Shown: piece by piece, positions 1,578 to 26,100 of the stretch
How positions within the stretch are numbered: position 1 is the stretch's first letter
Layout of the letters: each line of letters begins with the position of its first letter
Made by a program: the position numbers and the translations under genes
Source of the DNA: Saccoglossus kowalevskii
Lineage: Eukaryota > Hemichordata > Enteropneusta > Harrimaniidae
Assembly: GCF_000003605.2 (NCBI RefSeq)
Contig: NW_003143807.1
Span: forward strand, 186,936 to 213,738
Reading direction: 5' to 3'
DNA: 26,803 nucleotides
Notes under the pieces: generated by a model
The model's database searches: none
What the model was told of the DNA's origin: nothing
Seen by the model: only the letters and a program-made list of their open reading frames with translations

Positions 1578-4279
1578 CTAAAATGAGAAAATAACCTCAA
1601 AACTACACGTTTTTCGCGCTGTGCATGTTCGACATTTGTGTTGATAAACATTGATTTTTCCACAATCCAATGCACTCTTCAAATGGAAATCACAAGTATG
1701 AGGTTTGACCTGGGCGTGACTTGCACTAATTACCGCCGGTGACTCCTTCGATACCTTCCAATCACATGAAAATTACCTAATTACAGCTTGGAAATATGTC
1801 AGTTCGTACTCGTTGATCTGCGCAACAGTCAAAGTCGTGCTTTAAACTCAGAAACAACAGTGTGTTGCAAACACTGGGTGATCTCAATAGACTGCAATAA
1901 CATGAAAGCTCATCACATCTTAAATGCACACATGACAAATTCGAACAATAAAAATTGATGAGAGAAATTTACCTTCCTCTGGTATCCAGTGTATTGGATT
2001 TGGGTAAGGTTTAGTCCATCTCTTCAAATCATGCCAGACTTGTGGTATTTTGGTTCCTAAACCAGTCTGGTACCTATGACCAAACTGGTGATAAAAAAAG
2101 AAATGTAAAAGACGAAAAATCAACTATTAATGAAAAATGAATTACTACTCTTCAAACATTATTAATATAGTAAGCTATGGACAAAAATCATAATACACAA
2201 TTTATGAATGAGAACTACACTTACAAAAAAAAGTCTGATGAACTTGATTCAGTTAAATTCATTTGCAGACTCACTTTAATTGTAATTAGGATTTCTAGCG
2301 ATTTTGTGACCATCACTTGTTACCTATAAAAAGTCTTTTATTAACAATTTGAGGTCCGTGTCGTGGAGGAGGTACGGACCTCCGATTGTTATAGGTAACA
2401 AGACTTGTTATAGGTAACAAGTGACTGTGTCATGTGACTTCTTTAATTCATGCATGTTTTTTATTGCATATATCTCACCAGAGGTACACTACTTGGGGTT
2501 TGCAACTACAGTGACATGATACCAAGATCCTGTTTCAATCTCACTCTCGCATAAGCGTTGCAACTCAGAAGAATTCGAATGTCCATGCCAGAGGTAATTG
2601 GGATACTGGAATGTCCAGGTGGATCAAAATAGCTGCTCATGATATGACGGATTACGATAAAAATATTTTCTGTACATTTTTTCACCATGAATGTGGTAAT
2701 ACATGTTTTATTGTTTTATTACAAACCGCTTGTATCATGTCAGAAGGTCGTAGCATCAGTCTCAATATCTACGAGATGAGACTTGAATGGGATCTTGACA
2801 TGATGTGACCATACAGCACTATGCGCGTTGCAAACCCCAAGTAATGTACCTCTGCACATACTTATAATTCTTTTTTTGTAATAATAATAATAATAATCAT
2901 CTTTATTGTTATCGTATCCTCTAATAAAGGTATAGCAATGAAAAAAAAAAATTAAATGAGATTAAAAGAGTATAAAACAAAGGTATTAATAAAATATAAT
3001 AAATGAAAGTAAATGTTTTTTATTCATTTTGAGGCAGCTGGTAGTACTTTTTTCAGGTTGTTCTCCCTGATTTTAAAACAATCATCTATGTACTTAGCAA
3101 TTTGAGGAGCTAATTTTTTACTACCATTGTTTAGTATTGCAACTATTTTTTCTTTGTCAGGAAGTTTTGGAGGTAGCATCAAATTTTTGAGAAGCTCATT
3201 TCTTTCTTTTTTATAGAGACCGCATTTAAGAAGGAAGTGCTCTTCATTTTCTATTTCGTTTAATTGACAAAACTGACATTTTCTTTTTAAAATGTCAATG
3301 TTTTTATGTCTTCCAGTTTCTATTCCTAACACATGAGCACTAATTCTTAGTTTGGACATGGATGACCTGTGGAAGGGATTTTGCACAGTTTCTAAATATT
3401 TTTCAAAAGTGAATTTTGTTTTTAGATGTCTGTATGTGCGGAGTTTATTCTGATGTTTTGTTCCCTTATTATCATCATACAATTACATTGAATCTAAACA
3501 GTATGTTTGAAGGTTGGCTGCAAGCTTTTCAGAGACTGATTTAGGCAGCTTTTCATCTTTGTAATGGTTTTCTTCCCAAATGTGACTCATGTTTAAATGA
3601 GTCAACAGATTCTTTATACCAGATGTCCAATTATAGATGTTTAAATTATCTAAATAAATGCCAAGTCTATAGGCTTCTGAAAGAAGTGTGTTGTTCTTTG
3701 TTTGTTTTATTTTACATTTTACATTATATTTAATTTTTTGTTTTATACTAGTAATAGCTAATGGATATCTTCCTAGTTCTAGTAGACAAGCAAGATTGGT
3801 AGCTTTGCTGTTTACTCTTAAAAGAGATTTACAGAATTTTACATGCAATTTTTCCATAGGTGTTGTCAAATTAAAGAAATCTTTTGCATGGTTGTTGTAA
3901 TCAGTTGATTACAAAAGTATAAATAAATACTCTTGACAAGGGTAAAAATATCTTCATATAATATTCCAGATAACATTTGTCAGTGTTTGCATTTACGTAT
4001 AAAAACAAATATGAGCCGTATTTTAGATGGAAGAAGTGTATATGTCTCACGGTTTCTCGCGCGACTTCAATGTCATCTACAGTGCTTGTCCTGTACACTT
4101 ATAACTTATCTACCCTGACTGACGTGTATAAAATTGCATCATTAAAAATATTTAAATCCACATTGTATATTACACATTCAAGTGCAATATTTGTTGATTT
4201 AACAATCTTCGATATGAATGTAAATAATACTCACTCTTCCAAATCTGTGCACAACTTCTGGTACTTTTTTCGAAGCCAT
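1432..4279 (-). CDS. Small split gene, unrecognised ~100-residue protein (three proposed exons)
   Basis: Proposed join on the minus strand: 4279-4235, 2084-1973, 1577-1432 (45+112+146 nt = 101 codons with stop). It starts MASKKVPEVVHRFGR and continues FGHRYQTGLGTKIPQVWHDL then KRWTKPYPNPIHWIPEE, a basic, Trp/Pro/Tyr-rich sequence with a conserved look. All three exons have consensus splice sites and compatible phases (0, then 1). I do not recognise the family. The basic, compact character would suit a small mitochondrial or ribonucleoprotein component, but that is a guess. The third exon is the weakest, since 48 open codons can occur by chance. The gene lies head to head with the large plus-strand gene across roughly 300 bp. 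Its first intron (2085-4234) has taken up at least three mobile elements. Confidence 0.5.
1973..2084 (-). CDS. Minus-strand gene, exon 2
   Basis: The acceptor is CTTTTTTTATCACCAG and the donor GTAAAT. The exon enters in phase 0 and leaves in phase 1. It encodes 37 residues beginning FGHRYQTGLGTKIP and ending PIHWIPEE plus one base. Three Trp residues and repeated Pro make it much more protein-like than the surrounding open frames. Confidence 0.6.
2313..2424. mobile_element. 112-bp nested foldback element
   Basis: The outer arms are perfect 16-bp inverted repeats: TCACTTGTTACCTATA (2313-2328) and its complement at 2409-2424. The inner arms GAGGTCCGT (2351-2359) and ACGGACCTC (2374-2382) are also perfect and extend imperfectly through ACAAT..ATTGT. 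A 17-bp block, TTGTTATAGGTAACAAG, occurs twice in tandem (2386-2402 and 2405-2421). The whole can fold as one long hairpin. It has no coding capacity and is probably a non-autonomous DNA transposon. Confidence 0.7.
2479..2854. mobile_element. 376-bp MITE with 28-bp terminal inverted repeats
   Basis: The left end (2479-2506, starting CAGAGGTACACTACTTGGGG) and right end (2827-2854) are inverted repeats with one mismatch in 28. Inverted similarity continues inward with divergence (CAAGATCC, TTCAA, CTCA blocks). The element is flanked on both sides by CAC, a possible 3-bp target duplication. It encodes no transposase. The superfamily is uncertain: CAG termini with a 3-bp duplication do not clearly fit one group, and no 8-bp duplication was found. 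Confidence 0.75.
2881..3907 (-). mobile_element. 5'-truncated LINE retrotransposon fragment
   Basis: This is the C-terminal end of a non-LTR retrotransposon polyprotein. One minus-strand frame runs from about 3907 to 3024, interrupted by a single in-frame TAA at 3485-3483. It contains a C-x2-C-x9-H-x4-C motif (CQFC...EEHFLLKC), typical of the region after the reverse transcriptase in many invertebrate LINEs. The 3' end, to the left, finishes in an A-rich stretch and a (TAA)n run at 2881-2898, the usual LINE tail. The reverse transcriptase core and endonuclease are absent, so the copy is dead. An 18-bp palindrome (TGTAATCA-GT-TGATTACA, 3896-3913) marks the truncation point. It sits in the first intron of the minus-strand gene, in the same orientation. 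Confidence 0.8.
3024..3900 (-). pseudogene. LINE C-terminal coding remnant with zinc-knuckle-like motif
   Basis: The translation runs NNHAKDFFNLTTPMEKLHVK through SVSEKLAANLQTYCLDSM, then a stop at 3485-3483. It resumes in the same frame through KLRTYRHLKTKFTFEKYLE and the CCHC motif to a stop just left of 3024. One nonsense change in nearly 290 codons suggests a fairly young insertion. I infer the LINE assignment from the motif and the tail. Confidence 0.7.
4235..4279 (-). CDS. Minus-strand gene, exon 1 (start codon)
   Basis: ATG at 4279-4277 opens 15 codons, MASKKVPEVVHRFGR, ending exactly at a consensus donor GTGAGT (phase 0). The short N-terminal exon sits immediately beside the E-box at 4319-4326, as expected for a first coding exon at a promoter. 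Confidence 0.55.
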
Positions 4280-5091: not shown

Positions 5092-5139
5092 ATAAATATT
5101 GTACATAACAGAATTTCGAAACACAGAAATGGCAGGAAG
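5092..5139 (+). CDS. Start-codon exon (11 coding nt at 5129-5139)
   Basis: A strong acceptor (TTTTTTTTCATATTAG, ending 5091) is followed by 37 untranslated bases and AGAAATGG, a good start context with a purine at -3 and G at +4. It gives ATG GCA GGA AG, then the donor GTAATA. The two leftover bases join exactly with the next exon to read MAGRDVFPANKPG, which is why I chose this start even though only three whole codons lie in the exon. Confidence 0.72.
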
Positions 5140-8100
5140 GTAATAATAATATTAACTTTATTGCATTTTAAGAAATACACAATTTTCTATCAGTATATAA
5201 CAATGAAATTTATGTAGATCAATTCCTCTGCTCCCAGCTTGAAATCACAAGCTGCATATAATAAAGTTCGTCGGATTACGATAATGGTTCATGTATATCC
5301 AGAACATCAAAATAAGACGATATAACTGTGAGACCATGACTCATGCAATACTGGTACTGTAGAATACTTTATTTTTGCTTTGAATTTATCGCTATTTTTG
5401 CTGAAGGGAAGATTCCGTGAAAATAAAATCCAGCGAATATACTTTTTTCCCCTATATTTCACATTAAACTCATCAAAAATCAGTGAAAATAAATTCCATA
5501 CAAAACGCCCAAAAAGCCTTTTCAACGAAAATTAATTCCAGCAAAAATAAAGTATTCCACATTATTATCTCCTTTTGTTTTATTATTTTTTTTGTATGTA
5601 AACTTGAAATGTGATTCATGACATTTTGTGGCTTTTCTTTTTATCTAGAGATGTTTTTCCGGCTAACAAACCAGGAATGGGAAATTTCCGATATGGTTTC
5701 AGCCATAAGGATGAGATTGCTATTAGACAGGAGATTGACCAGTTGAAACGTGCATCAGAAGAAAAAATGATGGCGATAAAATTGGATAAGAAAAAAATAG
5801 TCAGACTGAAAGTGGATGAGGATGATACTATAGCGTAAGTTTTATATGATCAAAATTGAGGGGATAGACTACTGGCGATACACACATGATTCTGTTTTTA
5901 AACATGTAGATGTTAAAATGAAGTGATATTCATATGTAAATTGTATATACTCTGTATATATTTGTAAAACACCATACAGAATTATTCAAAAGTGTTACAG
6001 ACATGTTTGAATTGTGTGTCATGTTTATGCAACATTCAAACACTAGAAGTACTATCTGCATATGATGGAAATAAAATCCTAACACTGAGCGCAAACCTTT
6101 GTTGCTATTTCGGGCTGTTATTTCTCATTAAATTATTACTGAAGGCAGTGAAAAGATGTATAATAATCAGGTTATCACGAGAATACTGCAAAGTATACAA
6201 TCAGGTAGTACAGTAAGTCATCAACCTCCATTACACATTGGTTGATACAGTCACTGTACTGTTTTCATGTACACTTGCGATACTCTCATAAAAAACTCAT
6301 AATCTGTATTAGAAGCCGCATTTCTAATAATAGAAGCCACACCCATTCTTTTTGAACTATTATTGAATTAAGAACCAAAAATTCATCATTTCTCATGTGT
6401 ATATGCTTTCATTAAAGCTGCATCCCGTCTCTTGCATTGTACCATTTAAATAGAAGCCACAGCTTCTAATACAGATTATACGGTACATGTATTTGTAATT
6501 GAGTGTTCAACTACATTGAGCCAGGAACTTGGTACATCAATATTTTGATCTTTTTTTAAAGGCATACATACATTGGTGGGATTCAAGATAATATTTTTAT
6601 AGATACGTTTGTCAATTTTTTCAAACTTGCATTGAAGATTTGTATGATAGTTTTACACAGCTGTGTAGCATACTCTTTGCTGTACATGAGTATATTTGGT
6701 GTTATTATACATCTGTCACCGTTATGCCTGATTCTTTTCTAAACATTTTAGATTTCAGCATTCCCATGATGTATCCATGGAAGGAAAAGATGTATAATAA
6801 TAAGGTTATTACGAGAATTCCTCAAAGTATGCACTCAGACAGTACGCCGCGTCGGTCGATACTTCAGCTGTACTGTCTTCGTGCATATTCTCGTAATAAC
6901 CTCACATTATTTCGATACTGTAATCCTAACAGATATGTGAACACTGCCTTCATAATTTTGTGATCCTTTATAATTATCTTGAGCACCACTAAATCCTTAT
7001 TTTTGCTTCACCTATTCCTTTATTCTTTGCAGTGATAAAGTTCTGAATGTGTAGGTATATGTAGATAAACACATTTCAATATTAACAGAATTATTACTGT
7101 GTTTAATAAATGAATGGAGAAATATACTTTAAACTAATCTCAGAATAAAAGACATTTCACTGTACATATGTACTGTTCACTGGGTTTTTAATATCATTCT
7201 ATTTCTCTAATTTCTCAAAGAAATGAATCTGTGAATACCTTGATAAAGTTGTATGCAGTCAAACTCATGTGGTACTCAGTGTGTTAAGTCTCTTTATATG
7301 CATGAATATTGAAATAGTGAACTTAAACCTAGTGAACATTACCTAGTATGCATTGTTTAACAGACGGGCATTCATATACTGTATTTTCTCAATAAGAACT
7401 TTAGAAGTACATCTTCCAGTGTCATTTCATTCCTGTATTAATTGGCTAACATGCATTGTACATTCCTCACTTGAATATCTTATGGAGATGGAAAAGCATG
7501 TAAATGCAGTTTAGATAAATGCTCCTTGCTTGTGCACTCAGTGTAGATGCATACACTTTTTAAACAGTATATAGAATTTCTAATTGAGGAAATACAGTTA
7601 CATGTATACATCATGCATGATTATTTCTAAGGGTTAACTACAGCATTTTAATTGTTTTTTATGACACATAGGAATTATTAATTTGGAGGTATGTTGTGTT
7701 CTAATAATAATGTGGCAAAGAGTTAATAAAACTATGGATATAATATTTAGGGTATTATTTTCAATGATTTAATCATTTGAATTTGTGAATATTCAAAACA
7801 ACATATAAGAGTATATTTTGTTTTGTTATATAACACAGTAATACAGACAATATAGCATAATTTTAAGTTAAAAATATACATGTACGTTAATAAAAAAAAT
7901 AAAGAATTCAAATAATTGTGATTGCAAACTAAGCAAGTATTTGTATGTTTAAACTTATTGGGTTGAAGGTGATAGATGGTGTATACTCCATGTGGGGGTC
8001 AGGAATAAATGGAACATGGTGACTAATATCTGGTACATTTGTAATTTATTGATTGTTAACTACAGTACTATTTTTATTCTATTCAACAGTAAATTATCTC

Positions 8101-11100
8101 CAGAGTTTGGTAGAAAAAGAATGCCGTATAGGAGAAAACAAGAACCGATATTCCATGAAGACTTGGTCATTGATTCAACTAGGAAAGTACTGGTTGGTGA
8201 ACTTTCCTTTTTATATACAGTGTATTTATTGGATGCATGATGTCATTTTGCAGTGGAAGTTGTGGAAACCTTATGCCATAAAAGCCATGCTCACGTTACG
8301 GGATCTTGGTACCTGCTGAAATTTGTAATCTACATGTGCATGCTGAAATTTGTAATCCTTCTTGTTTGCAAAGGGATTACAGCATTTGGTGCATTCACAT
8401 TAGTCGAGACCCACTTGGGATCCACGCAGTTTGTCTCAAAACCGTGCTCTTATTCGACGATCTGTTATTTGACCCAAACATGGCAGATGATGTATCTGAT
8501 GCTATTTGCTGTTATTGCATTTATCATTAACCATCGAGCAAAAAAAAATTCAACTATTCTTTTCATGTTGACATAGCATTGCAAGAAGAACCTGATTGTA
8601 GCATAAATACATGTATGTGTCGCCAACAACATTCTGCATTTATTGTGTTCACGACAGGAATTGATATTCATGCCACCTTTATGATTTTTATTGTGTTGGA
8701 ACAAACACAGAGTAAATGTCTTGGTAGATATTGTAGTTTTACCAACATAGGACAATGGAGCTGTCTTAGCAAACTGCAGGAATCAATATATATTTTCTTA
8801 AGTTCACAGCTTAAAGCATGATCTTGGCTAATGCCAAGCATTCAGATAACTGATCTTGGCACATGCTCAGCCGAGATCGTGTTTTTTCTGCAAGTGACGA
8901 CTTGGTCTTGACTATTCACACACACATTCTGGCTTGTGTTGACCCGGTCCTGATGCTTGGCACATGCTGAGATCTCTAACGTGAACACCACAATTGTTTC
9001 TATTGGATGCATCATTGTGCTATGTTATGCAAAGCTTATTTCTGTGTACTATTTGAAGTCATACTTTATTATTTCCATTTATCTATGTTGCTAGGATACC
9101 AGCAAAGATGTGTTAACCGTGCCAAACTACAATCCCCTAGACAAATCTGTCATTCCACCATCGACCAGTAAAACCAAGAAGTATCCATTCACTAAAGAGG
9201 AACAAGTTACTACACAAGGTTAGTGATCATATCATTGTTACAGTAATGGGAGAGTAGAAATATGAAATGCAAACACTGTTTATTTAATTAATTGTTATGT
9301 AATACTAGTACATGTAATAATGGTGATTTAAGCAACAAGTTTTTGTATTATATTCACCATTTAAGAATTCTACTTGTACTATTTATTTCTTCAAAAAAAG
9401 ATTGCACATTGTAAAATTTTAATTACTGGTATACATCATTTATATTTTTCGTTTCTATGTATGTGGCTAAATGGTATTTCTGATTTGATTCCCCATCTTG
9501 TTACAGAGATGCGTAAGCCACATGTGTCAGCTCTGGGTGTACTCCCATCTAGAAGTACAAAAGACATCAAAGGATTGAATGTCATTATGGCTGGTAAACC
9601 AGCAGGTGGTAAAGATGATCACAGTATTGCAGCTATTAGAGAGGTATTAACTGCCAAATAATGCTGTACATTTAGTGTAATTAATTATACATGCGATGTA
9701 CAAATAAATAAATAACTAGCAAAAGTAGTAGATTTTTCAATTTTAGAAAGCATAGTATTCACTGAATATTCAAGTCTGACTTAATCCAGATGAATTTTAA
9801 CTTTTTGGATTCTGCTTTGGCAAAAAAATAAGATGCTTTTGCTGTAGAATGTATTTATAATCCCCAGATGTGTTTACTCCATTGTATACTACACTAACCA
9901 AATCTGGCATGACAAAATTATTCCATTTGAACAGTTTGCGTTTTATTGAACTGATTTAATAGAAAAAAAAATAAAACAAAACTTGAGTAAATGAAATTTT
10001 CTCAGATATTTCCCAAATTCAAATTTTTTTTTTAAATGACGAATGTTGGAAGAACAGTTTATTATTTCACCACAAATATAATTTATTATCATTAAGACAA
10101 GGGCAATCAGAGAGATATATAAATTTGGTATGTCAGTGTGGTACCATCTGTTTGAATGAGGATGGATTTACATTAAAGATAATCACTTTACATTGCAACT
10201 ACTTTGAGCATTTTTGTCATGTTGAGTACAGTGTTATTATCGAGAGAGCTGGCTTACATGCTGTAAAGTTATTATGTGCACAGTCCTTACAATCTGCTTC
10301 TATTTCAAAAACAGGCAAATACTACTGTGTCTACCAAGGAGAAGTCAAAACTAAACAGAGAACCAAGAAAAGAGACTGAGAAATGTCAAGATACTGCATC
10401 ACCAAAATCTAAAGTGACAAAACCAGCCATTGTAGGTTCTATTGGTACTCTAGCTCCTGTGTCATTCTCCACCAGAGCTAAGCCTCCCATCAGAACAAGA
10501 TCAGAGAACATTGACACAGGACCAACCCCTCGTCCTCCTAAAAGTAGAGGTATGATAGTTCTTGTGACTTCTATCAGTAGAATTGATTCAGCTATGTGCA
10601 TATACATGAGATTGTAAATGACTACATAAGTTGAGTCACTTGGCTACTTGAAGATGTGTGAGATATTTATTTATTTAGATATATGATACTGCCAAATAGA
10701 GTCCCTTTTTTGAGTCAAAATTGTCTCACTGGAAGGTTTTTACAATTTCAGTATTTATTATTAAAAAAGATCTATTGAAAATAACCAAAAATCATTTTTA
10801 AATCTTCAAATTGTGAAATTCCTGAAAAACCAAGACAGCCAAGTCTGGGGTTTATAATCTAATATGTAATCATTTGACAATAAATTATCAACTTTTAACA
10901 TTTGTAAAATAAACATTACACCCACAGTAGAACCAGAAGTTTTTGAGAACCAAATGTATAATAGCAAAGAAACGAAATATACTGATCATTATGTTGATAT
11001 TAATTTGTGTGCTTGGTGTGTGTGATTTTTCCCATACATGTGCAGAACAGTGGACTGATTTCATACTGTCATGTTACTTAATATACCCGGTACCAATAGG

Positions 11101-14100
11101 AGTACTAATTTTACAGAAGCTACTATATTGACATTCAATGCACTTATCATGGCGTTGATTCGTTTCACAGCAAGTTCAAGAGCAAGCAGTAAAGCAACGA
11201 GTAAGAAAAGCAAGAGTGCAGACAGCTCTCGAATGAAGGCAGTAAGAAGCCGAGCATCAGCAAAACGCCGTGCAGCCGACTCTGGTTCCAGTAGTGAGGA
11301 TAGTAGTGATGATGAAAGACACAGATTGAATGCAAGTGGTGTCAGTTTTAGAGATAAGAGTTTGCCGGCATCAGCGAAATCGGTTGCATCACAGAAGTCA
11401 ATTTCTGAGTTAGTAGCCGAGGCGGAAGCCATTGCTGCTGGTGGAAAACCAGATAAAGATGGCGAGAAAGGAGTAGACGAGGAGAAAGAAGTGGAGGTGG
11501 AGACACCTGTCCCTGTTGAGAGATCTGTGGATGATATTATTGCATCTTTGAAAGCTTCTAGAGGAGGAAAGTAAGTAGGAAGTGTTGTGAAGATATTCAT
11601 TATATAAAATTATCAGAGATTGATATTAAAACAATTAACTGGTTGTCCAGTGGCACAGTTTTGAAAAATGGTTGTCCAACTGACAAAGAAGTTATCCATT
11701 CGAAATTGTAAAAATTTTGTAGCCAGAAAGCTTTTGCTAACAATTCATGATCAATTACTAACACACGAAAATCTCATAAAAAGCAAGATTTGAATGAGAT
11801 AGCGCCCTCAAAGTTCAATCATGAACACATAGAAAGTGAGATTTGAACCAGATCTTGGTAGTTTCATTGTGGAGTCACTATATTTCACAGATCGTTTTTA
11901 GTGACATTCTAATGAAAAACTATTTGGAAGTGTTTTTTTTCAGTGAATATATACCGGTAGGTATTAAATTACGGTACATTGAAACAAAAAAAACATGTAT
12001 TTTTAGTGTTCATGATTTTATTTTCACAGCTAACTCAATATGTGCAGTGCTCAAAATTGATAGTTGTATTTAGCATGAGACAACCACATGTGAAAATGAG
12101 TTGTTCATTTGGACAACCGTGAAAATAAATTGGTATTTTCACTATATGATATGTACATGAGCCAAAAACATAATTCCCTCGGTTTATTTCCGTGGATTTA
12201 AAATACTTTGTAATTCATATGATATTGCATGTCTCACTGAGCGTTGTATAATTTGTGAAATCGTTGATACCATTATAATTTCAGTGAATCCATATGCAAA
12301 TGATAAAATTGTGGTAATCATATCACCAAAAATTATAGTTTAATTATACATTAAATTGTCAATGCAGGTTTTTTTGTGTTAATTAAGTCATTCAGTTTGA
12401 ACAAATAGGTTATAGGTTTTAGCCACAGTCAGCTGGCGCACGTGTGATAATAAAATAAATGTGATATTTACTACATGGGGCCGCCATCTTGAATGCGGCA
12501 TAAAACTAAATAAGAGACGTTGGAAACGCGTTTTTCAGATTCCTATAAATCAGGATGAAAATGCCAATATTTTTACAGAAATACATGTAAGATTCGTTGT
12601 GGTAATATTAAACCAACCGATAACAAAATCCAGCCGAATTCAACGTTTTTCTGTGGAAACATAGAACACTTTCCCGGGGTATTTAAAACCAAAAATTGTC
12701 ATTCCAGCTCAGCAGCCAATCAGCGACGGCCTTACAGTTAGATGACAATTTTGGTTTTACCAGTGAGTTAAACTTGCTTTTGGTGTCAGAGACATTACAA
12801 AATTATTACTTAATCTTTGCACTTTAAGACTAACTCTAATTTGTTTTTTTTCACAGACGAGAAATGTCAGCAGCTGATATTAAAATTCAACAAATTATGC
12901 AGAGTGTGATGGTAAGAGCTAAAGCTGTTTTAGGTGATGATATGGAGGAGGAGGTAGCTGAGGAGGAAGAAGAAGAGGAGTCGGAGGAAAAGAAAGAGGA
13001 GGAAGAGGATGGATATGAACAAGCTGATATTGTACCAGGGTTACCTGACATTAGTGTTATTATAGAAGCAGCAGAAGAGGATGAGACTACTGATGACCAA
13101 GAGTTGCTAGATGATATAAATGAAAATATAGAGGATGTGAGTATATTTCTCATTTCTGATGTCATAAAAACAAAAGATTATTCAAGTATCACCACTTGGT
13201 GGAGACATACTGTAAAAGACTTGAATTCTTCATTAGGTCTTTAATTAGTCCCCGTTCGGACGCAGTCCGAAAACGAGGACTTATGTTTTGACTATGTGTG
13301 CGTGCGTCCGGACCTGTATCTTGTTTCTGTATCTGTAAATGCCTAGACCAATTACAATCAAACATGATATTATACATATGCACATGAATTTGTTTCACGA
13401 TCTGATTCAAGATGGCCGAGTGGCGGCCATTTTTGTTCTAAAAATCATCAAAATCAAGCATTTCTTGGCTGTTTACAGATGGATTTTATTCAAACTTGGT
13501 ATATACATTGGACATTGTAGGACCTTGATGCACATCATTTTGTTTTCAGATAAGATTCAAAATGGCCGACTGGCAGCCATCTTGTTTTAATAATACATGT
13601 AGTGCCATATCTCTGACTTGTTGTGACTGATTATGTTCAAATTTTAAATATTCATTATACATCATGTCATAGATATACAGATATATTGGTTTGACGAGTC
13701 TATTAAAAATGGCCAAATGGTGGCCATTTTTGTGCTAAAAAAATCATCAAAATCAAGCATTTTGTTCAAACTTGTGACATACATTAGACATTACAGGTTC
13801 CTGATGCATGTTATTTTATTTTTTAGATCGGATTCAGAATGGCTGACTAGTTTTGTTTATATCACTGTTTTCAAAATTTGCTAAAATAAAACCAAGAATA
13901 TATTTATAAAACTTACTACCAGCACATATACTTCTGATCTATGTAGTAGTGTAGTCTTGAACTCCTGGGAGCACCCAATTTTAAGGTCAACAATTTCAAT
14001 AATGTCTGATAATATTGTCTTGCTTGTACTAGTTTGAAAGGTACCATATCAGTGCTATGGAGCATCTAAGGTGTTGTTTCTACTATGCCAAGCCCTTTAA

Positions 14101-17100
14101 GGTAGCGAGACTATTATTTGCATACTTGTTTTCATCTTCTAATTGTGACTAAATGACTACAAATAGACCCGGGAAAGTATATATTTTTAGAATCGTCAGA
14201 CTTCAAGCTTTTCACAAGTGTATTTTGCATGCCCGTATCTGCATTCTACGACGCGTTACTCAATCAAAGGTGAAAAATTACTTTTTCTGTAAAAAAAATA
14301 ATTACGCATTTATGCTGGCGATAAGAAGTATTTTTTTCACTTTTCCTAGTTGTTCAATAGTCTGGTAAATTGAATGTGTCTGGTCAGTTTTATTCAAGCA
14401 ACGCGTTTTAAAAAATAGTGTGCTGAATTTCAATTACTGTTTTAGTCACATTTNNNNNNNNNNNNNNNNNNNNNNNNNNNNNNNNNNNNNNNNNNNNNNN
14501 NNNNNNNNNNNNNNNNNNNNNNNNNNNNNNNNNNNNNNNNNNNNNNNNNNNNNNNNNNNNNNNNNNNNNNNNNNNNNNNNNNNNNNNNNNNNNNNNNNNN
14601 NNNNNNNNNNNNNNNNNNNNNNNNNNNNNNNNNNNNNNNNNNNNNNNNNNNNNNNNNNNNNNNNNNNNNNNNNNNNNNNNNNNNNNNNNNNNNNNNNNNN
14701 NNNNNNNNNNNNNNNNNNNNNNNNNNNNNNNNNNNNNNNNNNNNNNNNNNNNNNNNNNNNNNNNNNNNNNNNNNNNNNNNNNNNNNNNNNNNNNNNNNNN
14801 NNNNNNNNNNNNNNNNNNNNNNNNNNNNNNNNNNNNNNNNNNNNNNNNNNNNNNNNNNNNNNNNNNNNNNNNNNNNNNNNNNNNNNNNNNNNNNNNNNNN
14901 NNNNNNNNNNNNNAAACAATGTGACTTCATGAACACATGTGACCACTGTGCTACATGTACCAGTGATAACCATGATGCAGTGTATGTTTATTTTTATTAT
15001 AAATTCTAATCTTTATACAAAATTATTATTTTAGGAAGCTGCAGTGACTGATGCGAATGGTGTAGAGATTGTTCAACCCCCCAAGTCAGAAGATGCCCTA
15101 GAGGAAGATAAGAAACCAGAGGATGCAGTCACAACAAAGCCATCCCAAGTTGAATTTGATGAAAAGATTGAATTGATACCAGATGAAGGTATTGTTGTTG
15201 ATTTAGAGCAAGCCTGGCAGGTAAGCATCATTTATAGATGTTCTAACACTACAGTAATGTACTTTATTTTCACTTGGAATTTTATTTTCGCTATTCGCTG
15301 AATGAATGATTCAGTAAAGATAAAATCCAGTCAAAATAACTTTTTTTCTATATTCTACATTCAACTCATTAAAAATCAATGTAAATAAACTCCATACAAA
15401 ATACCCAAAATGTATTTTCAGCAAAAAGTAATTCCAGCTAAAATAAAGTATTTTACAGTATTATTGAATGTGAAATGCAGTGGCATACATTTCACGCCCT
15501 GTAAAATTTTCAATACATCAAACTGTGTAAATCATTGTCTCGCATACGGAAAAGTATTTTTATTGAGTTATAATGATTTTTTTCATACTGGCATTATGAT
15601 AAGAAATAAAAAGTGCCACCTACATGTACCATCTCCATTCATGTTGTATTATTCAGATTCACAAATAAAAATTCATTTTAAATTATAAATTAAATTATAA
15701 GTTATTCATCTCAATTTGTGAACAATACTCATTTGAAACAAAAAAAAAATTGTTATTACTATTTTTCAGGATGTCAACGCACCAGAATCAGTTACATATG
15801 AAGACATTGTCAATATAGAAGGTGAAATACAGCCACTGGAATCCAGAATAGAAATCTCTAAGACTGACCTACCACGAGCAAAATCCAAAATCCCAATTTT
15901 CAGTAGCTCTGTCTCATTCTTGTCTACATGGGCACCAAAGGAGAAACCTAAAACAGAGGTGAGAATTTGTTCAAAGATCATTGATAAACCTTGTGGCTCT
16001 TCCACATGGTCAGATTGGATCAGCAGTGTACACCTGACTAAATGAACCTGAGAATGCCTAGGTGAATTGATTGATCCTCATGTACAGTCTGTAAGGATGT
16101 TGTAAATGAAGTTTTTGACTAATCAAAATGCAGCTGCCCGGTTAATTTGTAAATCAAAGAAATCGGATCATGTCAGTCCACTTCTAAAATCACTGCACTG
16201 GTTACCAATTACATCTCGTATACATTAAAAAGTCAGAACTATTTGTTACAGTTCCATAGCTGTCACCGGTCCATCATACATATCATAACTACTTCAACTA
16301 TATACTCCTGCCAGATAACTTCGTTCATCCTCAGACACCCGTATTTTCTTGAAACCGTGCGTTTCAACCAAAACATATGGTGAACGCACATTTGCTCATA
16401 TTGGCCCCACTACATGGAACAATCTACCATATGATGTCCGCCACTCAAGTTCTCATGACTCTTTTTGTAATAGGTTGAAGACTCACCTATTTGATTTGAA
16501 TTGAAATTTACTTTTTTTTTTTTTTATGCGCTTAGAGCTAATTTAGGTTAAGTGGAATATAAATACTCTTCATTATTATTATTATTAATTGATTTTTGCT
16601 TTGTTTTCATCATAGAAGAAACAACCCCCTAGAGAACCAGAGAGAATGAGTATTCATCATTTCTGTACACATGCACCAGAGTTACCACTTCCTGGTCATT
16701 TACAAGCAGTCAGTAGAACCTACCATACACCAGCCAAGTATGGAATACAACAAAACATGGACAGGGTAAGTTGTCATACAACCATGTACACATACACATT
16801 TATAAATATTTTGAAATCTATAATATAATGTTTCTATTGCTATTTATGTTTGGAGGTAGACAACCTGTAATGTCTATTAGTCTGCTAACAGAATATAGAT
16901 GATAGAAACCAATAACCCCAGCTGGTAAAGTCTTCCAACCATGGCAGATCCATTATGCATTCTAAATGTTTCATTAAGTGATTTAAATAAGTTTGCCTCT
17001 GATTGGAGAAAAAGCTCTAACACCTAACCAGAAGACGAATCAGAAAAGGCCTTGCTTGTTCTCTTGGATTAGCCTCATATGAAGTTCTGGTGATAATATT

Positions 17101-20100
17101 TGTTGGAGTAGTGGAGGTCAGGCTATTTGCTAATTTTGTTAGATAGTTGATTAAACTAAAATTGCTTTGATTGAAATATATTTTTCGTATCTTCTTATCT
17201 ATGGCATCCCAAAATAACGTGTCAGCTTTGATGGCTATGATGATAATAATGGCAAACAATGTGCACTGACTATTCAATACATTCATCAGATCATGTAAAA
17301 CATTGGCTGGATCTTGTTGTCTGTAGCTTATTTTTTTATTGAAAGTCTCAGAAAGTCTCTGAGATTGTGACAATTAGTCTAAAAGTTTTCAAGATTGTGG
17401 ATAATACAAATTTGATTGAGCTTTCTACTTCCGTATTTGTCCTATTAGAAGTGCATATAAACCTAAAATCAAATTTGTTTAATACTGAATAATTAAAAAT
17501 GTAACTTATTTTGACCATTGAAATGTTTCAGATCTGAAATTTACGTAAGCGTATGCTCTACCGGTACTATTAGAGCAAATATAGGAATATTAATTTTTGA
17601 ATTACCGACCGACTAATTAAGTAATGTAATTTAAAACTGCTAACAAGTTTGGAGCTATGGAGAAATCACCTTGTAATATGTGTTTGTATTCATTTGATGT
17701 AACCAACTGCTCGGTAAAATATCAATAATTTATCATTTTATGTTTTCTCTTTTGAGAGGCATACTCATTTGTTCATCCAAATATTGCCAAAAAAAAAAAT
17801 TTTAATTGTTGATAAAGTAGTTGACATATGTTACAATCACACTCCATTACCTTTGTTTGACAGCATTCAAGATTCACAACTCAGAGCTACTATTCTCAGC
17901 TATCAGACTCCCAGCATACAATGCAGCAACAGATAGACGACTATCAGGACCGGGACCGTCGCATGTCGGCTGCCGCTAAAAGAATACTTGAGGTAGCATC
18001 TGATGATTCGCTGGATGCATGGCAGCAAAGAGCAGATGAGCTGGTCAGTATAAATCTTCACATTCTCAAAAAAAAAATGCACATACACTTTGTAAACTAT
18101 GTATTTATTGTATGCCTGATGATCGAAGTATGACTTAAAGTTCAAAGTGTGCTTCAATGGTCTGCCAGTTTTGAACCTCTCACAAAAACCGCTTTTTGTT
18201 GTCAATGTATCTCCAGGGTTGCATTTCTGGTCACACTTTGGGTGGGTACTGGTAAATAATATACAAATATTGACCCTGACCAAGGTTGATATACAGATTT
18301 GTCAACCCGGAGAAAACAAACTGAGGCAAAGCAAATTCTGAAATGCCATGTGAATTTCAAGTTTCAATGTTTTGTATGCATTGAAAAGTATGGAAAAAAA
18401 AACATGATGAAAAAAGCAGTTGATGACTCTTTCCATGTGTCAAGACAAAACCATGCAAAAATTGAGAGATGTTTACTAACAACTGCCACTGTTTAATTTC
18501 AAGTTCAATGGAGAAGACTGCGATAGAGTTGATGGTAAAAAGATGTCAGTAAATACAGACGTGTCCAGGTAAGAAAATATCTATCATTATACCAGTATTA
18601 CATAGTATTACAGTATGATACAAACATGGTAGAATGACTTTGTTGCACAAGAATTGTATTTCTAACACTGCAAACTATTGTTTTTGACTTGTAGATTTGT
18701 GTTCTCAGTAATACATAGTGTACTATAATGCTGATTTAGGATATACTATTTATTTATTCATCAGGCTTTATTGGACTCCAGCTCCTCCCAAGATGGATGT
18801 ACCACCAGCTTATGTAAAGAGTCACTTGTTTCCTGGTTACCATGGGGCGGCATTAGCTGAGGAAAGCGTACAAGCACCAACAATTGGTGAGGAGTCTGGT
18901 GAGAGTGAGGCTGAGTTGGTTAGTATCTATGATGAAGGGGATGTAGAAGAGAAGCTACAAAGGGAAAGGTGAGGGCGCTCTTCTCTAAATGTCTTAGAAA
19001 GTAATTCAAAACTGTCCATATTCTTGTTGCCGCTATAAATGATATTTCTTTGCAAATAACGATCTATAAATGTAAAATGTTTTGCTGTTCTTTAAAAAGT
19101 TTACTCTAAGCATGTCCATAATCTTCATATATGAACGTTAACTGCGTACAGATGTATGTCAAAATAGGTTTATAAATATGTAGATTTCCTTATGCTAATT
19201 GAAATACGCTTCTCAGTTCACATGTATACAATATACATGGGCGACACCCACTCATCCCCCTATATTCGATGCAATGCTTGCATTTAACTTTGGTATCTTG
19301 TAATTCCGATTAGGCATGTCATGTTTGAAACAAAATGTGGAAAAATTAAAATCATGACTTTGGTGGAATAATTATGTGATTAGGATTAAGGTAGTTCTCT
19401 ACCATTAAAATATTACAAACTTTATAATTAAAAAATTGTTGTGTGATGATTCACATACATGCAAGTAATATATGCATATAATATTCAAAATTTTTAGACA
19501 GCCATATGTAGCTTCATAACGCTATATACCGGTAATCATATTTTTAGAATAGGTCACCGAACAAAATTTTGAGATATGATGGAATATTTCTGCCATAGGA
19601 ACCAATTGTAAACTATTCAAAACATGCATTTTTTAATCAATTTCTGAGGTCGTTTTGTGGAAAACTTTTGGTGACCAAATATTTCTGTTTCAGAATTTTG
19701 AATATTACAGTACCCCAACCCCTCTTGCTCGAGTTCAAGGGTTTCTGAGTATGTTTTTTAATGTTAGCAAACTATCTTAATGTCTTGTGCTTATATTATG
19801 TATAGAACACTGACCAGAGTGTATGGTTCCAATGAAGATGTGAGTAAAGTCCCTAAACCTAGACAATTGAAACCCAAGACACCAGCAAGATCACCATCTG
19901 TAAGTTCAAAGTCAACCACTGAGCCTGAAAGAATGAAGAAAAAAGGTAAAGATTTCAACTGTGTTTTACAATAATTGGGTAACACAAACAAGCCTTTAGA
20001 AACTGTAGGGGTTGGGGTAGAAACAGATAAGGCAATTCAGTTTGCAGAATGTGTGGATAAAAAGCAATCTCTAACTGTAGTCAGGGTTTCATGTGCAATG

Positions 20101-23100
20101 AAGATCTCGCAAGAATTGAAGAAGCCACATGGATTGTGAGATGATCGTCAACATTTTATTTAAATCCTTTGATGTGTTTAAGTATTACGTTTACTGTAAT
20201 TAATAAATACTACAGGTATGGTAAGATATCCGCTATGCCAATAGTCTAGCAATTCAGTTAATATTCAGTGTTAACCATTTTTCATTACGAGTCTTGTTCA
20301 CTACGGAAATTTTGCTTTGATTCTAAAGTTTTTGAAACTTTTTTTTTTATCTAGGAGCACCTCTGCCAATACGTGTCAGAGTCAAAGACATTGAACTCCC
20401 TGAAGACTTACCACTCTCTGTTGCAGCTGACAAACTGTACAACAGTGTACAGAAGTGGGACGATATCCCACAATTCAAAGCATACATAGAAGCCTTATCA
20501 GGTAGTGCGAAGTGTTCTAATGTGTCAAAAGGTAGTTTGGTGTTTGAAGTGGACTGTAACAATCCTAAAGCGGCAGATGCTGTCTGGTCAGCTTACCAGA
20601 GTGGCCGCTTAGAACAGTTACTTAAGGAAAGTCTGATGAAAAAAACTGGTGCTCACAGACTAGTGCTTGAGATAGTCATTGGTGAGGAGGAGTTCCAAGG
20701 GCTGAAAAGAGAACTTTCAGAAGGTGAATTGACTTTTCTTTGCCTCTCTTCTCATCAGTCATGATTCAGATTTGTTGGAATAGCTTTTGCATGCATATGA
20801 ATACACATGTTTTTTCTCATTCATTCAAATTTTTAGTTTGTTGTTATCACATCTCTTCCTCAAGTTTTCAACACGGAGACTTGTGTTCTCACTGTTTTGC
20901 TGCATATTTTCCAACATGTTGACATAAATACATGTTTATTGCACCCAATTGTCAGCACATTTCAATAGTTAAATTATTTCAATCACTATTGCATTCTTCA
21001 CCCATACTGAACACTGTCTCAGAATGATTTTTTTCCACCATTACCAGTAATGTCAGTTACAAATACCAGTAACTTCACTGTTAATTCATTCATGTTTGAT
21101 TTGCATATAAGTAAACACAAATGATATCCATCAGATTGCTGTACATCATAGTGGCATTGATATTGAAGAGATTGGCGTCACTTTTGATGTCACAGATCAG
21201 ATATACAACAACAAAAACGCAGCTGTATTTCATATAAACATTTCTGCTGCACCTGTTGTAAAATTTGTTAATTTGCATGCTTAGTAAATAAGCATGACAG
21301 TCACCTGTTTCCTCAATATTAATATATATAAGTTGCAATGTACACGATTTATTTATTCACATAATATTGATAATTGTTTGCACATACACTCTAGCTGAGG
21401 AACAAGATGAAGACATAGGTGCCATGGTGACAGGTCAGTCCACTATCAGCACTATCTTTGTTATGCAAATGCACAATGTAAAATATTGCAAGTACATGCA
21501 TAATAATTTTATCACTTGTTTTGGTCACTTTCAAACTGACCAATAAATGGAAGAGAAGTGTGAAAAATGACCCAAAAATTGGTGCCACGATTATTATGTA
21601 GTGCCCTCCAATGTCTATGCTAACTATGTTTGTGCTTTTGTTTTTATTTTTTTAATTCACAGGATATTAACAATTTAATTATTCATTTTAGGAGATAAAG
21701 CCCGTCCTTCAAGGACCAGTGTGGCCGAGATGAGACAGATGTTTTCCAAGATGGCTACTATCAATCCAAGTGAAAAACAAAGACCTTTTGAAATACCAGA
21801 TGAAGACATTTTTCCAGCTGAAGTTCCCATTAGGTACTTAATCAGAAGTTTTAATTTGTATTGAGTCCATTAAAATATATACCGCTAATTATAAATAAAT
21901 AATATTGACTTTATGTCATTGTACATAGTGGTGTGGTAATTTCAGTGTTTAATAAGTAAATTAAAATTATTTTATGAAAAACATTGACCCTTCTTAATGC
22001 TAAATTATTCCCTATTTATTTGAGTCAGACATTTCTTATATATTAATCAGAAGATTATTGTACACATTCTGAATATTCACTAAAACTTTAGAACAATGTT
22101 TGATGAATAAAATAAAATCTATATAGAGATAACGTGCATCCTCAATATTAAGTAAATCTCATTCTGCTGTGTAGGAGAGCTGTATCCTGTCCTAATTTGC
22201 ATGAAGAAGAGGAAGAATGGGATATCACATTTCCTGGGGATTTCAACACTTACATGAAAGAGCTACAGATCCAGAAACAACAAATAGAAGACGTGAAATC
22301 TGGGAAAATGAAAGAACCGTACAGCAAAGCAGAAGAAGATCCAGCAAGAGAAATTGTATGTATGGAGTATGGGTTTTAATTGTGCTTTAAATCAAATTTA
22401 TACTTATAATTGTATCCTGATCATATTTTAAATAGCTAAATTGTTAAATGATGATGCATTCACACTAATTCTGAGACTACATTGGATACAGGCTACTTTC
22501 ACAGTAGTTGAAATGCCAACCTACCTTGCCCTGTTGTTAAAATCACATTTTGTGATGATACTTTTTGTCTTATTGGCATTTGATAATATAAATATTCATG
22601 AATTGCCAGACTGGTATTATTTGATGATTTTTCCTGATTCATTGTAAATCAGTGGGAGTTGGAACATGTTTCAAAAGTGTTAGCAAATGGAATTTGAACA
22701 AAAAAAATTAAATACCGGTAACAAGCCAAAATGTCAGTACTAATATGAAAACATCTTTGAATTAAAATAGTCTATAATAGTCCTATAAATGTCATCATAA
22801 TTGTTCTGTTTTATGTAATCTTTACAGGTTTCCAGTCTCTCAAGAAGTATTGAACAGTTGACCCCTGTACAAGTAATCAAGAAAGGTATTGTTAGTAGTA
22901 AACTTAGAAGCATGACATATAAGAATCACCTTGCGTGAAATCTACTTGCTTATTTTGGAGCAAGATAAACCAATTAATAATCCAAAACTATGTAGATAAA
23001 TCTAAATCCCACAATCCCAATTCAATCTCAAAAGAGATGTCCCCAGTACTTACAATTAGTAATTTTCAAACAGGTTATATGATCTTTATTTTCCTTTATT

Positions 23101-26100
23101 TATTATTTTTTTATTTTACTTTGATTACCTTATTTTGTTTCAGTGGAAAGTCCAACTCCTGCTGAGGTTGCAAGAGAAGCTGGCTTGAAATATGTTATCC
23201 TACCAAGTAAACCCAAGTGAGTGAATATGAAAGAGTGTGTCTTTGTGATTTGGGGATAAATCAAAGTACCGGTAAATTAATATATATGGTGTGTCTGTTT
23301 ACTGTCTCAAATTAAGGCAATATTGGGTTCCATTCCCATTGTAGTATATTAAACTTTGAATAGTTGTGTGAGATGTCATGTAAATTATGGTGAGAACTGG
23401 CCATGTGTGCTGTTCTTGGTGCACATTGAAGAAGCCAGGAGAACCGTCTTATAAGTAAATGACCAAGGCTGAATTACCATAAATTAGTATGGCTGCCAAT
23501 TCATGCATTCTTTTCAACACACTGTTGTTAAAATAGTCATTAATTTATAATAGTAATATTGTGTAATTTATAAATATTTATTACAGAAAAAAGAAAAAAA
23601 AGAGGGCTGACCCTGTGAGTATATTTAGAAATATTGTTGATTATAATTAAGATTTTCAAACATAATGTGGCAATATAATTTATTTTCCATGCCCTGTCTT
23701 TGTGATATCAAAGTTTTCTTTTAAACTGATAATAGTGTATGACACTTTCTTGGTGTATTGTTTGCAGAGACGCCTTGAACAGATTGATAGATTTTTAAGA
23801 GAATCCCCCAAACAGCTAGTAAGGTAATGTGTGAAACTATTCTGTCAGCAATGACTATTTCTACAGCAAAATGAATTTTATTTCTATTTGTCAAATATTA
23901 TATGCTTTAATAATCAACATAATACCTTGGTTGATGTTGTTGCTTGTCTGATTGTTGATAACAAATGATATGAATCAGATATACATGTATATCTAAAGCT
24001 ATCATAATTCATTACAGGAGTGAATCCTTACCCAGGGTTACCTTACCAGTAGAACCACAGTTGAGAGTCCCAAGGTAAGACACACCTGTAACTTGATGGA
24101 AGTCATCTGTTGTATGAAAGATGGAGTATGTGGTATAAGACTGTGAAATAACTACATGCAATTTTAACAAACTTGGTTTCATGGCTGAGTGAGCAGTGTT
24201 TGATTTTAATAGACTGCACCAACAATCAGTTTTTAATAGGCTTGTTGCTGAATTAGCGAAGATACAATATTGCTATTATAGCTTACTGTAAAATACTTTA
24301 TTTTCTCTTCGATTTAATTTTCGCTGAAGGAATGATTCAGTGAAAATAAAATCCAGCGAATATACCTTTTTTTCTATATTTTACTTTAAACTTGTTAAAA
24401 ATCAGTGAAAATAAAATCCATACAAAAACACCCAAAATGTTTTTTCAGCGAAAATTAATTCCAGCTAAAATGAAGTATTTTACATGTTTTACAGCCATTT
24501 GTTTGAATTGATATATACAAATATACATAAGTATGTGTTTGAGCTGATTGAATAATGTACTTTGTGATTATTGTCATCCTATATAGGCATGTAAGACATG
24601 GACGCAGACCAAGCATTCCCAATATTCTGAATTTTGATGAGTATATTGAGAAACATCATGTAGAGTAAGTAATGCAACATGTTATTATTACCTGATATAT
24701 GAACTGTAAATAGTGTACATCCAGTGATTTGTGAACGAAGACATCTTCTATTTTCTAGAGGAAATGTTTAATACATTGCATGAATAAACTGCAGCCAGGA
24801 ATGTATATTGTCACCAAAAGTATCGTAAAAGTGTGTGGTACAGTACAAGAGTAGATATAAATATTTAAATAAAGGTTATATTTCAAGAAATACAATAGAG
24901 TCCAGCCTATATTACTGACCTCTGATCAGTCCCATCATAATTACCCCCTGTCACAGACACACTCCGAGATGGAGACTCATGGATTTATTTCCGTCCATTT
25001 GTCTGCTCATGACAGATTATAACTCTGGAATGCATAATCTGATTTGAATTTCTTGGACAAATTGTTGAATGTAATGTACAGCAGCTCAAAAAAGTTTCTT
25101 CATGATTTTGTTTAGGGGTATTTTAAAGTAAAAAAGGATAATTTTTGGTCAAAAATAAACTGAAAATTATGTTTTGTCATTTCTTAGCTTTGCATTCACC
25201 AGTTTTATTCAAACTTGGAGTTTATACCATATTATGAGACACAGCTTCAAGGGACATAGTTTTGCTTTTCAAGCACAATTTTATGCATATTTCAGGGTAA
25301 AAAATGGTAATTTCTGATCACAAAAATAGACTGAAAATGATTTGTTTTTTCAATGTTTAAGCTTTGCATGGACCAACTCAAATGACTAACCATGTAGCCA
25401 TGTCTTCAAAAACAATAGGGTTCTATTTTACTGGCCAAATTGGAATATGACTTGTTCCAATTGATTCACACTCTACTTTGTCTCAAACAGAGACTACGAC
25501 ATGTCTTGTTTACATGTAAAGTGACATGTATACAAAGTCCACCTGTCTAATTTGACTCCAGAAATGATGTAAGATGATATACACTTAGTGATTTACACTA
25601 TTCTCTCCACTGACTAGGATATTTTGATTTATTCTTCATTCTTTCAAGATTTGTCCTATCATATTTTTAATCATAAATTAATTAATCAACCTCTATATCA
25701 AGACCACCTGTCTATAAAGGTCAATTTAAGTACCATGGATGGTTGCCATACATAGGTTTGATTGTATTACTGACAAATTTTGAAGTAGACTTTAAGTAAT
25801 GTTTTATCTGATGAAGTGATATAATGTAACTGTGTTTCCGAAATGACACGATATCCATGCTAAAGTTTACTTATTTGTCTTATCAGGGAAGGTACGGATC
25901 TTCGTGAATGGGCTCGTGATATCTGGAATGACTGGTTTGATGAGGTATTTCCTCCAAGTTATCGAGATACAGAAACACCTGTGACTGATATAGGATCAGA
26001 TATTGAAGTAACTCCAACTAGAAAGTGGGTCTCTTGTCGAACGTTTACATTCACAATTCAATTATATAGTATTCTAGATACAGTATTCTTTACAGATAAA

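Follow-up and report, generated by a model that had tools for sequence, protein, structure and literature searches.

The window analyzed here is a 26,803-nucleotide stretch of the genome of the hemichordate Saccoglossus kowalevskii (contig NW_003143807.1, positions 186,936 to 213,738, forward strand). It holds a predicted gene of 26 exons (5129..26024, plus strand), which has an ATG start at 5129 and a product of 1268 residues. Exon 16 of this gene (20355..20723, plus strand; 123 codons, phase 1-1, residues 862-985) very probably encodes a true TRADD-N domain in its entirety. The gene model was built by hand from AG/GT sites, compatible phases and a single open frame, and is a prediction from sequence only. 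Within it, exon 16 has an AG just upstream of 20355 and a GT just downstream of 20723, and its phases match those of both neighbouring exons. A first-pass annotation of the window had proposed a TRADD-N-like domain, seen as three peptides in one exon, inside an otherwise unrecognised and mostly disordered protein. The peptides do lie in the same plus-strand frame of exon 16, where that annotation had placed them, and the residues given for the region (about 862-985) are those of the exon product in the spliced model.

The domain encoded by exon 16

Among 24736 Pfam models, TRADD-like_N (PF20694) is the sole match of the exon product up to E=10, so that a confident match to another family, which would have spoken for a different identity, is absent from Pfam at that threshold. 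The alignment covers 20465..20635 (plus strand; about residues 899-955) and profile positions 4-64 of 69, with an E-value of 5.4e-5 and a score of 23.4 bits (5.5e-5 and 23.3 bits in a repeat), 0.3 short of the curated cut-off of 23.7. The whole 1268-residue protein, which was used in this form (with a donor after 26024) as the query for protein searches, gives the same single match (19.2 bits, E=0.0011). Outside the domain, Pfam recognises nothing in the protein at E-values up to 1, as the description "otherwise unrecognised" had anticipated, and no NCBIfam family matches the exon product up to E=1. Sequence matches of the protein or the exon in the PDB are weak (L22e ribosomal proteins from 0.055, two plant ribosome-inactivating proteins at about 0.09, and others), and no TRADD chain is among those of either query. 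A PDB search with a profile of six paralogs, described below, returned nothing relevant.

A structural model of the exon product has an RRM-like β-α-β-β-α-β fold, and its top structural match is the N-terminal domain of TRADD (PDB 1F3V chain A; 112 residues aligned, 12% identity), which bears out the comparison with TRADD that the first-pass annotation had suggested. The modelled fold begins near 20357; thus the extent first given to the domain (20519..20723) holds for its C-terminal part and is too short as a full extent. A Gly-Ser pair (20531..20536, plus strand; residues 921-922), read from the sequence, sits where model strands 51-57 and 60-66 meet, the strands either flanking or including it. 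This is the position of the uS motif of the β2-β3 turn as defined for the superfamily (Kaur et al., 2021; PMC8195603, section 8). All three testable features of the TRADD-N superfamily, namely profile similarity, an RRM-like fold and the uS motif, are therefore found in the exon product. The name TRADD-N is supported because profile, paralog context, fold and motif agree.

Related exons in the same genome

A search of the 572-Mb genome with the exon product returned, besides the window itself, six exons (E=4.8e-7, 0.0013, 0.022, 0.15, 0.53, and 1.1). The best of these (4.8e-7) lies downstream of a death effector domain (DED) exon (PF01335, 1e-18), and four others (loci L009, L010, L011, and L013) lie downstream of a GT4-conflict glycosyltransferase exon (PF20706, 1.1e-29 to 2.8e-37). 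At the remaining locus (L012), no DED or GT4 exon was seen in the readable ~1.5 kb upstream, before an N run. The DED or GT4 exon and the neighbouring TRADD-N exon probably belong to one gene in each case. A reciprocal search from the DED-linked exon recovered itself, the L009 exon, and then the window exon (E=2.7e-8), followed by further exons at L026 (1.7e-6), L027 (0.10), and L028 (0.15) and by three of the already-known ones (0.25 to 5.1). By eye, L027 and L028 have GT4-like frames upstream, and L028 has an ankyrin-like frame downstream. By these sequence similarities, the window domain very probably shares its ancestry with the TRADD-N exons that accompany DED and GT4 exons elsewhere in this genome.

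The match was examined with several controls. A hidden Markov model (HMM) built from the six paralogous exons, with the window exon excluded, was run against 3800 sequences, comprising the window and locus open reading frames and the exon product shuffled 2000 times; E was 4.9e-18 for the window exon and no lower than 0.37 for any of the remaining 3799 sequences. With an HMM from four paralogs the window exon scored 6.7e-11, and with the DED-linked exon alone 1.6e-11. These HMM values are flattering and not independent, because the paralogs were gathered by similarity to the window exon; less biased values are those from Pfam (5.4e-5), the genome search (4.8e-7), and the reciprocal search (2.7e-8). 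Profile-profile comparison with hhalign gave 98.35% for the window exon and a maximum of 1.57% over 100 shuffles. Among ten 122-residue slices of the protein, nine reached at most 1.36%, and the slice covering the domain (855-976) reached 98.27%. On these sequence comparisons, a chance origin of the domain match is excluded.

Splice sites were inspected in ten TRADD-N exons: the window exon, the six from the genome search, L026, the second exon of L027, and L028. Every one of them (10/10) has a donor-like GT of phase 1 at the end of the domain and, upstream, a possible acceptor of the same phase. Several of the ten loci also present acceptors in other phases, splicing being predicted throughout, and the ten exons are homologous, so that their agreement in phase does not amount to ten independent facts. 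An exon that is symmetric and carries a whole domain is of a kind that can be shuffled without loss of the reading frame.

GT4-conflict (PF20706) exons lie upstream of TRADD-N-like exons at four loci of this genome (L016, L018, L020, and L022), and at L014:7434-8754 (minus strand) a DED exon is followed by a TRADD-N exon. By eye, two successive TRADD-N-like exons of different subtype apparently belong to a single gene at L027:725-1893 (contig C4098), a frame between the GT4 and TRADD-N exons at L018:7912-8346 (plus strand) resembles an extra TRADD-N-like domain, and ankyrin-like frames occur further along the same contig (L019).

The host gene and its surroundings

The host exons, all on the plus strand, are: exons 1-9 at 5129-5139, 5649-5834, 8090-8186, 9095-9218, 9507-9643, 10315-10549, 11171-11570, 12857-13136, and 15035-15220; exons 10-18 at 15770-15958, 16616-16765, 17864-18043, 18504-18568, 18765-18968, 19806-19945, 20355-20723, 21395-21433, and 21692-21833; and exons 19-26 at 22175-22355, 22828-22885, 23144-23216, 23587-23614, 23768-23823, 24018-24074, 24587-24664, and 25887-26024. 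An N run (14454-14913) between exons 8 and 9 could conceal another exon. Exon 17 (21395..21433, plus strand) is 39 nt long; like exon 16 it is of phase 1-1, so that skipping of either exon would keep the reading frame.

The 3′ end of the gene is ambiguous. The last exon may use the donor after 26024, or it may be read through to an in-frame stop at 26167-26169, which gives 1315 residues; neither form has the length of about 1276 residues that was first proposed. A codon-bias scan, which was trained on the same exons, marks the longer host exons, and the donor after 26024 is favored, though not proven, because the last marked segment ends at 26025. Directly past the window end, the contig consists of N for 21,493 bases (contig positions 213739 to 235231). 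By a charge-hydropathy estimate, 1068 of the 1268 residues fall on the disordered side, in line with the earlier description of a mostly disordered protein, and the longest ordered stretch (876-957) is the TRADD-N domain. This domain is the sole recognised folded domain of a large, mostly disordered host protein.

Upstream, at about 1973-4278 (minus strand), lies what appears by eye to be the start of a divergently transcribed gene with two short exons; its peptide, which includes some intron residues, matches nothing in Pfam, and nothing in the PDB with an E-value under 0.6. Segments at 3024-3869 (minus strand) and about 16090-16500 (plus strand) look by eye like remnants of reverse transcriptases of the long interspersed nuclear element (LINE) type. 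Those at about 6790-6900, 720-790, and 6160-6230 are similar to one another, partly palindromic and, again by eye, resemble short inverted-repeat transposons. Past the N gap, the coding scan marks two overlapping minus-strand frames, one of which looks by eye like a G-protein-coupled receptor (contig C3472 about 235700, L004). Elsewhere in the assembly, a mitochondrial locus (L032, contig C4830) carries COX1 and ND1 on opposite strands and in convergent orientation (3′ end to 3′ end). COX1 uses TGA for Trp, has ATA at positions of conserved Met and a single AAA in a Lys context, and has no AGA or AGG codon; ND1 has eight AAA in Lys-like contexts and two AGA. As a guess, this codon pattern would fit the mitochondrial code of a lancelet and speaks against those of echinoderms and hemichordates.

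A probably portable exon in a mostly disordered protein

Two results weigh against reading exon 16 as a TRADD-N domain. Pfam gives the paralogs low scores (12.8-14.2 bits) or fails to match them, with DED-linked and GT4-linked exons below the window exon, and a genome-wide PF20694 search at E<=0.001 lists only an NCOA6-like exon, the window exon being missing. If the resemblance were one of fold only, exon 16 would encode another ferredoxin-like domain, for instance of the IS200-transposase or HMG-CoA-reductase type. This is very improbable, as these families give no Pfam sequence match up to E=10, homologous exons lie downstream of DED and GT4-conflict exons, the Gly-Ser motif is present, and the reciprocal genome search returns the window exon. 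A second possibility is that exon 16 was left behind by a GT4- or DED-TRADD-N gene that has broken down, and that as a relic or cryptic exon it now sits in an intron of an unrelated gene and outside the mRNA of that gene. The recurrence of phase 1-1 TRADD-N exons across the genome would fit such a relic, as would a gene model predicted from sequence and a host frame that, exon 17 also being 1-1, survives without exons 16 and 17. However, the 123-codon frame is intact, motif and fold are kept, the phases of exon 16 fit both neighbours, the assembled protein has no DED or GT4 match, and codon bias fits the host gene, though the scan was trained on exon 16 among others. A relic is thus improbable, if less so than a likeness of fold only.

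The main rival takes the gene for an ordinary immune-type TRADD-N fusion, whose disordered region is just a linker and whose effector, sensor or death-fold domain would be encoded further 3′, in a part that the sequence does not show. Further exons may indeed be hidden in the N run beyond the window if the last exon splices at 26024, and the closest paralog is DED-linked. On the other hand, Pfam recognises nothing else at E-values up to 1 in the 1268 residues on either side of the domain, and termination at the in-frame stop would leave no unseen 3′ part. Because the last exon can terminate in this way, the fusion, which was already unlikely, was lowered slightly further. The favored explanation, probable as a whole though less certain in its scaffold part, is that a mostly disordered scaffold has its docking site in a TRADD-N exon that was acquired, or retained, as a portable unit.

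In comparison with the TRADD-N superfamily (PF20694; Kaur et al., 2021; PMC8195603), the window shares the profile match, the fold, the uS motif and the DED- and GT4-linked homologous exons, whereas its exon scores just under the curated cut-off and its host protein has no recognised Death-like or effector domain. The superfamily domain usually lies between two globular domains, often one of them Death-like; none is recognised in the 1268-residue model, whose 3′ end is ambiguous. DED-linked and GT4-linked contexts have been described (PMC8195603, sections 10, 11, and 15), the former in both clades and the latter in the DEDD2 clade. The best exon of the same genome recalls the DED-TRADD-N proteins (DEDD2, and expansions of the NCOA6 clade, e.g., in Branchiostoma), but no DED is recognised in the window protein. 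With no Pfam match before the domain to stand for the N-terminal DED of DEDD2, and with a hand-built 5′ end, the modelled protein does not qualify as a DEDD2 ortholog. The phase 1-1 exons of this genome have a counterpart in the GT4-TRADD-N proteins described from some marine invertebrates (DEDD2 clade; section 11), but the window protein has no GT4, ankyrin or leucine-rich repeat match in Pfam. Although it resembles the N-terminal domain of TRADD in fold, no Death domain is recognised after its TRADD-N domain, and neither the DEhD caspase-site motif nor the C-terminal domain of FAM124-type metazoan proteins is found in the 1268-residue model, with the same ambiguity at the 3′ end. A PxQxxD motif is likewise absent from this model.

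NCOA6 is a further parallel, being a large protein that in most animals has TRADD-N as its one recognised globular domain (PMC8195603, section 10). A separate NCOA6-like gene, named by reading its sequence, lies elsewhere (contig C3686, L001:1426-3198), with 42.4 bits against PF20694 and a long poly-Q tract. The window exon compares with a part of the NCOA6-like domain region at E 1.6 among 12 sequences, which is a weak test.

The host gene most likely acquired, or retained, the TRADD-N exon as a portable phase 1-1 unit. The diversity of TRADD-N proteins has been attributed in part to retrotransposon-driven fusions (Kaur et al., 2021; PMC8195603, section 11). Because the TRADD-N copies are intron-bounded, DNA-level exon shuffling is suggested in addition. 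The words "exon" and "intron" are absent from the main text of that paper, and a literature search found no paper combining "TRADD-N" with "exon shuffling". The terms "DEDD2" and "hemichordate" occurred together in this paper alone, whose supplementary tables, outside the comparison, might list the window protein.

As to function, the TRADD-N domain has been proposed to work by a switch of protein contacts that the conserved serine operates (PMC8195603, section 12), and in the superfamily partners bind through the sheet face and this serine; for the window protein such binding is predicted by analogy. As its likeliest role, though tentatively, the disordered protein would be a scaffold or tether, with long arms and a single folded docking site. 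The domain may dock a partner through its exposed sheet and the Gly-Ser turn, as TRADD does with the MATH domain of TRAF2, or may dock another partner, which would then be brought to the place where the disordered arms are anchored. The adaptor role in death or immunity that was first suggested for this protein is likewise tentative, since no death-fold or effector domain is visible in the 1268-residue model (Pfam, up to E=1) and its 3′ end is ambiguous.

NCOA6 has been described as the only single-copy TRADD-N member without conflict domains (Kaur et al., 2021; PMC8195603, section 13). It is conceivable, though rather doubtful, that the window protein is a second "institutionalised" TRADD-N protein beside it. 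On this reading, phase 1-1 exon shuffling would have brought an immune-type TRADD-N module into a disordered scaffold that is conserved and of non-conflict type. An ordinary cellular protein would thereby have acquired a site at which the death/immune network can dock, or else a decoy of that network, and the superfamily may have a second member outside the classical immune architectures. That DED-linked, GT4-linked, and disordered-protein genes show the same symmetric phases speaks for a shuffling of exons in DNA as well, a proposal open to testing in other animals.
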